Origin: Candidatus Poribacteria bacterium
GTDB lineage: Bacteria > Poribacteria > WGA-4E > WGA-3G
Length of the DNA: 64,000 nt
NCBI GenBank assembly: GCA_022821965.1
Contig: JAJECN010000058.1
Location: 62,001 to 126,000 of the forward strand
Direction of reading: 5' to 3'
The translations under genes and the position numbers were made by a program. Shown here piece by piece: positions 19,143-21,934 of the stretch. Position 1 is the stretch's first letter. Each line of letters begins with the position of its first letter. The notes under the pieces were generated by a model that made no database searches, was not told the DNA's origin, and saw only the letters and a program-made list of their open reading frames with translations.

Positions 19143-19931
19143 TTAATACTGGGTTTTTACTGCTGCCCACGTTGTTGTCGCTTTTCCACCGGGTTCAACA
19201 GGGAAAGGGTTCAGGTTATCATTGAAATATTCGTATTCAACCTCCAGACTCCCCGCGCCTGCCGCGACACCGGCATAAATCCCGAGCCACAAGGGCGGAG
19301 TCAGTTCAAATTCACCTTGTCCAATATCTTCCCAATCCTTATCTTCTGCTGCTTTATACCAAGCAGTGTATGTATCGCCCTCTTTTTTGAGTCGGAGGGA
19401 CATTTCGATGTCACCCCAATCACCAAATCTCCATTGGATATCAGGCGGTCCCATCCCGGCTTGCTTAGTTTGATACTGGATGTGTCCTTTCGCTCCTGCA
19501 TCTCTTGACCAGAATTTAATGGTTACCCAATTATCGTCCTTGGGGCTTTTCACGACCAGTCCATTAACGCCAGAACTGGTATCCCATTTGGCAAAGAAGT
19601 GAGTTTCGACATCAAACATATCTGTGTCGGTTTCCTGATACAGGAAATGCGACATATCGTTTGCCCAGAGGTTCCGGTTCGGTTCGCTGTCAATATACAA
19701 GAAATTTTCACGTGTTTCACCGACATCCCATTTCGGGGGTTCGTTTTGCCATTTCCAATTTGGATTCTGCAATTTGCCTTTTTCAAACGGGTCACCGAAT
19801 GAATCTGCGGCGACCGCAACGCCTCCGAAAAGGAAAACGAGAAGACATACACTCATACTATATTTCAGAATTCTTTCAAATTTTGGCGTAACTTGCCAGC
19901 CAAAACTTGTTGTTAAAAGTCGGGTTTGCAT
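19143..19931 (-). CDS. Secreted concanavalin/lectin-fold (DUF1349-like) protein
   Basis: A 262-aa exported protein. A hydrophobic signal segment (CLLVFLFGGVAVAA) is followed by a beta-rich domain with WKWQNEPPKWDVGETRENFL, FFAKWDTSSGVNGLVV and WLGIYAGVAAGAGSLEVEYEYF, like DUF1349/laminin-G type carbohydrate-binding folds. The C-terminus is GGKATTTWAAVK, a motif shared with two other secreted proteins here. The start is uncertain: ATG 19931 is used, ATG 19856 lies directly ahead of the signal peptide, and neither has a strong ribosome site. The IsrB element ends within about 30 bases upstream and may have replaced the original 5' region. Confidence 0.75.
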   Translation of the reverse strand: MQTRLLTTSFGWQVTPKFERILKYSMSVCLLVFLFGGVAVAADSFGDPFEKGKLQNPNWKWQNEPPKWDVGETRENFLYIDSEPNRNLWANDMSHFLYQETDTDMFDVETHFFAKWDTSSGVNGLVVKSPKDDNWVTIKFWSRDAGAKGHIQYQTKQAGMGPPDIQWRFGDWGDIEMSLRLKKEGDTYTAWYKAAEDKDWEDIGQGEFELTPPLWLGIYAGVAAGAGSLEVEYEYFNDNLNPFPVEPGGKATTTWAAVKTQY

Positions 19932-19957
19932 AAATTTATCTAAAGTTGCGTTCAAAA

Positions 19958-19977
19958 CCCAATCCTTTAGGTTTGGG
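19958..19977 (-). repeat. Right-end hairpin of the IsrB element
   Basis: On the minus strand the sequence reads CCCAAACCTAAAGGATTGGG, a stem-loop that overlaps the isrB stop codon. It closely resembles the hairpin at the other end of the element (21183-21202), as expected for subterminal hairpins of IS200/IS605-type elements. Confidence 0.7.
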
Positions 19978-20998
19978 ATGTAGAACGGTTCATCTCCTTA
20001 TATTTGAGGTTGAGTCGTTTCAAAAGAGTATAATCGTCTTTTTTCGCTTGTAGGACGACTTGTTTACTGCTATTGATTTCACTGAGGGTTAATTTACCTT
20101 TCTGGTATCCTGATACACGGAGTAATCCGTGTCTAACATGTTTGACGAGTGCGTTCTTGACGGTATGCAAACACCGCGTGCCACCGTATCTATTCCGTTT
20201 CCTGTCTTTCGCCTCTTGTTCGCGGTGCAGACACCTGCGTTTGATAGGGATAGGCGCTATACAGAATATATCGGTGTTATCAGGTATGCTTTTACCGCCA
20301 ATCGTCCGATAAGCAAGACACCAACTATCAACACAATGTGCATCAAATGTTTCTGATAGTTTGTCAGACGACTTTTTGAGTCCAAGTCTATCCCGTATCT
20401 CTTTCGTTTCCCAGCCTTGAAGTGTGAGGAGTTCCCAACGCTTTTCAACTTCAGAATAGAACCACTGCTTACCGACTTCAAGGGGACTAAACGATTGATT
20501 CCATTTTTTCGCACGTTCTATGGTTCGTGCCTTAATATCTTCAACACAGACATGCGTAACAGGATAGAGTTTCGATAACCAGTCAAGAATACGAAGTTTC
20601 CACTCCCACCTCGCACGCGTGCCAGCAGGAATACGCGCTTTGTTCGCAAGTCGGTTCGGACGGTTCGGACGGTTCGGACATTTCCGTGAACGCCGACCTC
20701 TCCGCAACTCACGACGTTTCGCAACTTTTTTACCGACTTTATCATGTGCGTCAGCCTGCACATTCAAGTAAGTGTGTGATTCTGATTTGACAGTAAAACC
20801 CTCTTTCTTGCTACCGGGGTCTACACCTACGGCAATCTCTTGTGTTTCTCTATCAGAAGGTTCTTTGTTCAAACGGATACAATAGATACCATTATCCCAA
20901 TAAGGTGTTGCCTCACCGCGTTTAATCAGTTTCCTCGCACGCGCAGCATGCATAGGCATAAGTTGCTGTCCGTCTTTTGTTTTTACAGGCACAAACAT
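19967..20998 (-). CDS. isrB: IsrB-type RuvC nuclease (HNH-less IscB relative)
   Basis: A 343-aa protein of the IscB/IsrB group, RNA-guided relatives of Cas9. It opens with a PLMP-like domain (VPVKTKDGQQLMP, residues 3-15), then RuvC-I (AVGVDPGSKKEGF, Asp60), an Arg-rich bridge helix (about 90-110), RuvC-II (HVCVEDIKA, Glu153) and RuvC-III (AHCVDSWCLAY, His221/Asp224). Only 68 residues separate RuvC-II and RuvC-III and they hold no CxxC or HNH motif, which marks IsrB rather than IscB. IsrB proteins are omega-RNA-guided nickases. The start ATG 20998 has AAGGAG upstream and matches the IscB start; the frame runs 20 codons further upstream. All three RuvC parts are intact. The bridge helix carries a small 9-base tandem repeat. 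No TnpA transposase is nearby. Confidence 0.85.
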   Translation of the reverse strand: MFVPVKTKDGQQLMPMHAARARKLIKRGEATPYWDNGIYCIRLNKEPSDRETQEIAVGVDPGSKKEGFTVKSESHTYLNVQADAHDKVGKKVAKRRELRRGRRSRKCPNRPNRPNRLANKARIPAGTRARWEWKLRILDWLSKLYPVTHVCVEDIKARTIERAKKWNQSFSPLEVGKQWFYSEVEKRWELLTLQGWETKEIRDRLGLKKSSDKLSETFDAHCVDSWCLAYRTIGGKSIPDNTDIFCIAPIPIKRRCLHREQEAKDRKRNRYGGTRCLHTVKNALVKHVRHGLLRVSGYQKGKLTLSEINSSKQVVLQAKKDDYTLLKRLNLKYKEMNRSTSQT

Positions 20999-21210
20999 AA
21001 GTTTTGTAGTCTCCTTTTTACAGGGTATATGTTGCCCCTTCCAGATCGCAATATCCAAGTGGAATTAGACGAGGGGAGTATCCGAAACATTGAACTGGCT
21101 ACCACGCCAAGATACTGCGATATATTACTGTAGAAAACCGTTTAACTTGTGGAGTGGACGCTTGGTGTGCGCTTCGCACAAGCCCAAGTCTTTAGGCTTG
21201 GGTAGTTGAC
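20999..21210 (-). ncRNA. Probable omega-RNA of the IsrB element (left end)
   Basis: The 210 bases upstream of isrB encode no protein. Read on the minus strand they begin with CAACTACCCAAGCC and a stem-loop at 21183-21202 (CCCAAG/CTTGGG), followed by a second stem-loop at 21166-21180 (TGTGCG-AAG-CGCACA). This is the position and start of the omega-RNA in known IscB/IsrB loci, where the guide is taken from the DNA just outside the left end. The guide would then be read from about 21211-21230. The exact 5' and 3' ends are inferred, not seen. Confidence 0.6.
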
Positions 21211-21265
21211 TTGTAACCTCCTATCCTTAATTTTAAAATAGATTACCGAGATTGTCAAGATAAAT

Positions 21266-21419
21266 TGGAGGGTAAGCCAGGGCCATTCAATTTTAAGAAA
21301 TTATTGGATTTCACGTCTTTTTTCAAGGATCCGGTTCGTTTAGGAAACCGAACCTACCGGGCCTGGTGGGTGAAAATTCGAGCGAAAAATGGACAATTGA
21401 ATGACCCTGGAGGGTAAGC
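21266..21419. mobile_element. MITE-like element with terminal inverted and flanking direct repeats
   Basis: Inverted ends lie at 21277-21294 (CCAGGGCCATTCAATTTT) and 21393-21410 (its complement with one or two mismatches). Outside them the 12-base direct repeat TGGAGGGTAAGC occurs at 21266-21277 and 21408-21419. The interior of about 100 bases has no reading frame and contains a smaller palindrome (GGTTCG...CGAACC, 21332-21353). This is the layout of a small non-autonomous transposable element, but the direct repeats partly overlap the inverted ends, so the exact boundary is unclear. Confidence 0.55.
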
Positions 21420-21514: not shown

Positions 21515-21934
21515 TTAATCGCGCTTTATCCCAACCACCACATTCTCAGAAGACACGTCCGCCGGGATGACGACAAAAATCTTTCCAGATTCACAGTTTT
21601 CGCTCTGTTTTTTCAGATACTGCGATATTTCATTAGCATCAAGGAGAACCACACCATCGGCAGCAGCATCTGGTGTAGGTCCAAGTGGGGTACCAAACTT
21701 TCGCACCCATTTGAAGACGGTACTCGGTGAGACCGAGAACATCCGAGCGATTGTGCTTATAGAAATCCCCCGACAGTATAGGAAAACCGCTAAAGCTCTT
21801 TGCCATGGCGGTCTCCCACGAGAGGTAAGTCGCGTAAACTGAAAACCACAGGCTTTACACTTATAGCGTTGGCTTCCTCTGGCTTTCCCATTCTTGACAG
21901 CATCTTCCCGTTTGCAACGCGGACAGTTCATCAC
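21515..21934 (-). CDS. IS1-family transposase-derived zinc-ribbon/HTH protein
   Basis: A 139-aa protein matching the N-terminal DNA-binding half of IS1-type transposases. It has a zinc ribbon (NCPRCKRED ... YKCKACGFQFTR) and a helix-turn-helix (SISTIARMFSVSPSTVFKWVRKFG). The C-terminal 45 residues (VVLLDANEISQYLKKQ ... KIFVVIPADV) look like the first strand of a DDE domain, but the catalytic core is missing. It has its own promoter-like sequence and an AAGGAGAGG ribosome site, and no terminal inverted repeats were found. It may be a truncated transposase or a domesticated DNA-binding regulator. Confidence 0.7.
   Translation of the reverse strand: MMNCPRCKREDAVKNGKARGSQRYKCKACGFQFTRLTSRGRPPWQRALAVFLYCRGISISTIARMFSVSPSTVFKWVRKFGTPLGPTPDAAADGVVLLDANEISQYLKKQSENCESGKIFVVIPADVSSENVVVGIKRD

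Follow-up and report, generated by a model that had tools for sequence, protein, structure and literature searches.

How a gene such as purD, present in a single copy, works with a 1.27-kb element lodged between its ribosome-binding site and its start codon is the question raised by the locus analysed here. The window, a stretch of 64,000 nucleotides from a Candidatus Poribacteria bacterium (contig JAJECN010000058.1, positions 62,001 to 126,000), contains one element of this kind just ahead of a host gene. IsrB proteins are small RNA-guided DNA nickases related to the ancestors of Cas9, and the element is very probably a complete, non-autonomous transposable element of the IS200/IS605 type, whose IsrB is a predicted omega-RNA-guided nickase of a clade with NTAA target motifs, and which landed between a Shine-Dalgarno sequence and a start codon. 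The sequence itself gives both ends, the place of the guide, the target-adjacent motif (TAM) and an omega-RNA supported by covariation, and it encodes an intact protein predicted to fold like the IsrB of Desulfovirgula thermocuniculi (DtIsrB). A preliminary description of this DNA had already recognised the IsrB element; added here are its altered TAM, its place of insertion, which separates a Shine-Dalgarno from a start codon, the abundance of copies in the genus, and cognate TnpA/TnpB elements that share its ends.

The limits of the element were set by empty sites in related genomes, a comparison that the preliminary description had proposed. When the two flanks are joined they read TTGACA-17-TAAAAT..AGGAGGTTACAA|ATAAATTTATG, and the same site was found uninterrupted in 21 relatives, two of them identical at the junction, in such a way that the element is delimited to 19940-21210 (minus strand, 1271 bp), without target duplication, with the predicted guide at 21211-21230 and ATAA as the TAM at 19936-19939. 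The guide falls where it had been expected, and the limits first proposed, 19950-21215, were slightly off. The left boundary of the guide comes from 128 copies together with the empty sites, and its length of 20 nt is borrowed from DtIsrB. In nearly all copies the left end is (G/T)TCA or a near variant, placed straight after unrelated sequence, and at the right end a hairpin precedes a short motif that is usually GATGA. The related hairpins noticed earlier at both ends were borne out, as the omega-RNA model described below also matches the right end weakly (20.5 bits) and the folding of both ends beats that of shuffled sequences (z of -3.0 and -2.3). The element thus shows the subterminal hairpins, fixed short target and absence of target-site duplication that mark the IS200/IS605 type.

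The protein of 343 amino acids is an IsrB by its sequence matches and modelled structure, and is predicted to be an RNA-guided nickase of the non-target strand. Pfam RRXRR was detected in it (1.2e-30), and its closest solved relative is DtIsrB (Protein Data Bank entry 8dmb; phmmer 5e-32, profile 1e-44). The AlphaFold2 model obtained with 62 aligned relatives, including IsrB from viral contigs, had a predicted local distance difference test score (pLDDT) of 88, a model from a narrower alignment without the viral-contig relatives (pLDDT 57) having been set aside. Foldseek ranked 8dmb first for this model (template modelling scores 0.80/0.83), with IscB structures next, so the predicted fold superposes on DtIsrB. 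The three RuvC parts reported at the outset are intact, with Asp60, Glu153, His221 and Asp224 invariant across the 62 relatives, down to 37% identity. No HNH domain was matched in Pfam or NCBIfam searches, the stretch between E153 and H221 being 68 residues without an HNH hit, and the NCBIfam model guided_IscB matched residues 5-156 only, under its cut-off. The protein therefore combines what characterises IsrB: a PLMP domain, RuvC I-III with a bridge helix, no HNH and a length of about 350 amino acids.

Upstream of isrB there are 212 non-coding bases (20999-21210), as had been noted, and instead of the two stem-loops described at first we found 11 covarying helices, with one pseudoknot in which CCCCA/UGGGG and CCCCU/AGGGG switch together. 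This structure was derived from 51 diverse copies, in which the region from the left end to the start codon could be aligned along its length. Paired cells amount to 94.6%, compared with 82.5% in shuffles, and changes on both sides of a pair were found in 223 cells against 54, a signal that collapses once the partners are slid by one column. The omega-RNA-like left end thus has a conserved, covarying structure. In the covariance-model search proposed for this region, a model built from relatives, with the window copy among its training sequences, matches 21001-21210 end to end with 212.5 bits. No Rfam family reached its gathering score; HEARO (RF02033) aligned over its full length at 21025-21210 but scored 14.1 bits, far short of the 83 set as its gathering score, suggesting that the window RNA belongs to a divergent lineage.

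In DtIsrB, R323 reads G at base 3 of the TAM and Q326 reads A at base 4, the Q326R change accepts NTGG, and six characterised IsrB orthologues have NTG, NTGA or NTGG as their TAM, with G at base 3 in all six (PMC9581776). Profile alignment places these residues at positions 313 and 316 of the window protein, with the chain numbering shifted by 150, a value deduced from the prolines of PLMP. The TAMs of about 136 Poribacteria copies were read from their insertion sites, the right ends of eight having been set by hand before the count (seven by eye, the window copy by its empty site). Base 3 varies with residue 313, being G with Arg and A with Gln or Lys, and base 4 varies with residue 316, being G with Arg and A with any other residue, in such a way that NTGA was found in 99 of the 104 copies with Arg313 and a residue other than Arg at 316, NTAA in 15/15 with Gln or Lys at 313 and again no Arg316, NTGG in 12 of 13 with both arginines, and NTAG in the three copies with Gln313 and Arg316. 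A tree that leaves out the TI domain yields eight independent phylogenetic contrasts per position; on average the base changes along with the residue in 7.9 and 7.7 of the eight, and never in the opposite direction (p about 0.008 each). The window copy, with Gln313 and Leu316, falls in the NTAA clade, outside the motifs of the six characterised orthologues. Replacement of the base-3-reading Arg by Gln would explain why this clade has NTAA rather than NTGA, and NTAA is probably read by IsrB itself. As position 313 is Arg in all 54 viral-contig relatives that align there, the Gln313 of the window looks like a local innovation.

The window copy is inserted 8 nt ahead of the host ATG, and all three full copies of the genome sit in ribosome-binding regions, those of the window gene, of purD and of a galactonate-dehydratase-like gene. 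The purD gene (NCBIfam purD) is single copy in this genome, and the site that the element splits here is matched without a break in 36 other genomes. Further split starts were found at glnS, with one full-length match in its genome, thiI and dprA, and the sites at glnS, dnaN and tnpA are empty in relatives, with flanks that join exactly at the ATG. The use of dnaN as an essential-gene argument was dropped, because there are 3-6 dnaN matches per genome. At one locus (L229, 190-1460, genome G055) the IsrB element lies between the Shine-Dalgarno and the ATG of the tnpA of a TnpA/TnpB element. In 55 of 100 NTGA/NTGG-type sites the ATG or GTG within the TAM is the first codon of an open reading frame (ORF) of at least 100 amino acids, against 17% of comparable nearby tetranucleotides. 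Outside ORFs, 43 insertions at starts were counted versus 35 other intergenic ones, with 313 versus 1314 in the null (odds ratio 5.2, p 9e-12), and the left flank contains a Shine-Dalgarno-like sequence at 36 of the 60 sites with a long ORF, compared with 4 of the 40 remaining sites. These data point to elements lying preferentially between the Shine-Dalgarno and the start codon of host genes, so that many guides would be duplicates of host ribosome-binding sites and start codons would frequently double as TAMs. HEARO elements have been reported adjoining ATGA or GTGA, which fits insertion at gene starts; in a largely open-access literature nothing relevant was found on insertion of IscB, IsrB or IS605 elements at start codons or ribosome-binding sites, which may be on record elsewhere.

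Besides its three full copies the genome carries one fragment, and matches were found in 41 of 59 genomes of the family, up to 20 per genome, while among the sampled genomes of the phylum only one outside the family has an IsrB element. Viral contigs of IMG/VR also carry IsrB genes, about 39-53% identical, at 70 loci (L327-L396), and the viral-contig proteins among the 62 aligned relatives are mostly 40-50% identical. No match to a Y1 transposase (TnpA) was found in the element or elsewhere on the contig, in agreement with the earlier proposal of a non-autonomous element with no TnpA near, and cognate TnpA elements are present in other genomes. Related sequences include an omega-RNA (164 bits) with an IsrB-type right end and no IsrB gene, a guide-only derivative at a gene start (L211, 1501-1746, minus strand, G000:C15), a miniature inverted-repeat transposable element (MITE) that is about 110 bp long and consists of nothing but the two element ends (L225, about 509-625, G000:C42), and TnpB-type elements whose opposite-strand right end resembles the IsrB left end (L214-L217, L224).

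A good promoter, TTGACA-17-TAAAAT, adjoins the window copy and is retained in relatives; a promoter at a constant distance from the left end was sought across copies and not found. In the mechanism that we propose, the IsrB element would be excised by TnpA supplied in trans by TnpA/TnpB elements whose ends match its own. Transcription coming in from the host side would yield the guide and the omega-RNA, which IsrB would bind to nick the non-target strand of empty alleles, where the guide match is followed by ATAA, and this nicking would make it more likely that the excised element is kept or copied in.

With respect to translation of the split genes, a conserved AGGAG lies directly before the hairpin at the right end, and the gap from hairpin to ATG is 7-10 nt. 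The Arg codon at this AGGAG is AGG in 88 of 99 copies versus 11% elsewhere (raw counts, uncorrected for relatedness). Our hypothesis is that the hairpin would bridge the distance between this AGGAG and the start codon. Tentatively, the family may have adapted to ribosome-binding sites, with a right end that restores initiation, single-copy genes that tolerate the element, and a TI domain diversified into NTGA, NTGG, NTAA and NTAG readers; guides would then match translation starts, where the element could reside safely and to which it could home. A TnpB element and a MITE that share these ends have retained the AGGAG as well, which may mean that its role lies in transposition. In the minimum-energy fold the AGGAG is fully unpaired in only 8 of 98 copies (0-2 in simple shuffles), and the window copy has no AGGAG-type match near its start codon.

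Several points weigh against the interpretation of the element as a whole. TAMs taken from insertion sites reflect the target choice of the transposase as well as recognition by IsrB, and nicking, guide and TAM are predictions from sequence. Gene starts come from mechanical ORF rules applied to genomes that are mostly metagenome-assembled. The start expected from TTGACA-17-TAAAAT leaves only about 13 nt of guide, less than 20 nt, and for the window copy transcription from further upstream, or a guide of under 20 nt, has to be taken into account. The only IS200-like TnpA found in the genome is truncated, which makes the IsrB elements non-autonomous and presumably moved in trans. With no intact IS200-like TnpA seen, and a right end in the window copy that departs from its clade, the element could be a decayed remnant in which IsrB and omega-RNA are present and expression or mobility is lost. 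This seems unlikely, since the ORF is full length with every catalytic residue, the omega-RNA keeps its pairs (212 bits) and the changed outer stem still forms the right-end hairpin. It is very improbable that the protein is an IscB that recently lost its HNH, outside the IsrB lineage: IscB models do match its N-terminal half, but DtIsrB is best in both sequence and fold, with IscB structures lower, and a similar length is found throughout the Poribacteria family and the retrieved viral-contig relatives.

Insertion at gene starts could also arise with no preference, from ATGA being common at starts together with the loss of intragenic insertions. Selection is indeed strong, as insertions inside ORFs are 10/88 compared with 76% of null sites; starts are nevertheless enriched among the sites outside ORFs, and we regard this explanation as possible but doubtful. 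As for the TAM, its link with the two residues might come solely from shared ancestry or from swapping of the element's 3' end, and not from recognition by IsrB, given that the TI-coding region adjoins the right end, so that one exchanged segment could carry both, and that target choice belongs to TnpA. This appears quite improbable when residues 313 and 316 are exactly those contacting TAM bases 3 and 4 in DtIsrB, Q326R is known to admit NTGG (PMC9581776), the eight contrasts agree at each position, and the two positions combine freely, with all four types present. Reading of the TAM by IsrB, in turn, would give a prediction for retargeting a very small nickase, namely that Gln at the 323-equivalent would confer NTAA and that adding Arg at the 326-equivalent would confer NTAG. 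This one lineage, whose natural copies number more than 130, with target motifs readable from the genome and differences on two DNA-touching residues, also forms a natural series for the joint change of the target choice of a transposon and its RNA-guided nuclease.

Table 1. Coordinates in the window of the IsrB element, its parts and the adjoining host features
Feature	Position	Strand	Basis
Whole IsrB element (left end 21210, right end 19940)	19940..21210	-	Empty sites in 21 relatives
isrB, 343 aa; stop codon 19967-19969 inside right-end hairpin	19970..20998	-	ORF, profile, structure prediction
omega-RNA scaffold, about 210 nt	21001..21210	-	Covariation and covariance-model match
Left-end hairpin	21183..21202	-	Copy alignment, covariation, folding versus shuffles
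Right-end hairpin, outer stem CGTTC/GAACG	19949..19987	-	Copy comparison, folding versus shuffles
TAM / target motif ATAA, kept from target	19936..19939	-	Empty sites; clade pattern
Predicted 20-nt guide TTAAGGATAGGAGGTTACAA, host gene 5' leader with Shine-Dalgarno	21211..21230	-	Copy boundaries and empty sites
AGGAGG Shine-Dalgarno of host gene, severed from start codon by element	21217..21222	-	Sequence and empty-site alignment
Host promoter-like TTGACA-17-TAAAAT	21230..21258	-	Sequence; kept in relatives
Host gene, 262 aa, start codon 19929-19931; marginal GH43_C2 concanavalin-like match	19143..19931	-	Homologous DNA in 59/59 family genomes searched

Two further features were seen nearby. 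At 21277-21410 lies a MITE-like repeat, about 134 bp long and bounded by imperfect terminal inverted repeats of 16 nt, and about 83 bp of it recur at dozens of places across the genus, 85-99% identical. An orphan 139-aa protein at 21515-21934 (minus strand), with an InsA-like zinc ribbon and HTH_23, is possibly a transposase remnant.

Compared with known systems, the window IsrB and DtIsrB (PMC9581776) have in common their size, the PLMP-RuvC-bridge helix-RuvC-WED-TI layout, the catalytic residues and the fold, as well as an omega-RNA 5' of the gene, a guide outside the left end and a TAM on the 3' side. They differ in sequence (about 29% identity), in Gln313/Leu316 replacing R323/Q326, in NTAA sites instead of NTGA, and in the scaffold, 262 nt in DtIsrB. 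The IscB proteins (OgeuIscB and others) share PLMP, RuvC I and bridge helix, with guide and TAM on the same sides, but have an HNH between RuvC II and III, whereas the window protein lacks it and the guided_IscB model covers its N-terminal half only. The whole HEARO model aligns at the right place and strand, although far under its gathering score. Finally, the IS605-type elements of the genus have terminal hairpins and target motif in common with the IsrB element, both one with TnpA and TnpB (L247) and one with TnpB-type content (L224); they carry tnpA and/or tnpB in opposite orientation, whereas the IsrB element is without a transposase.
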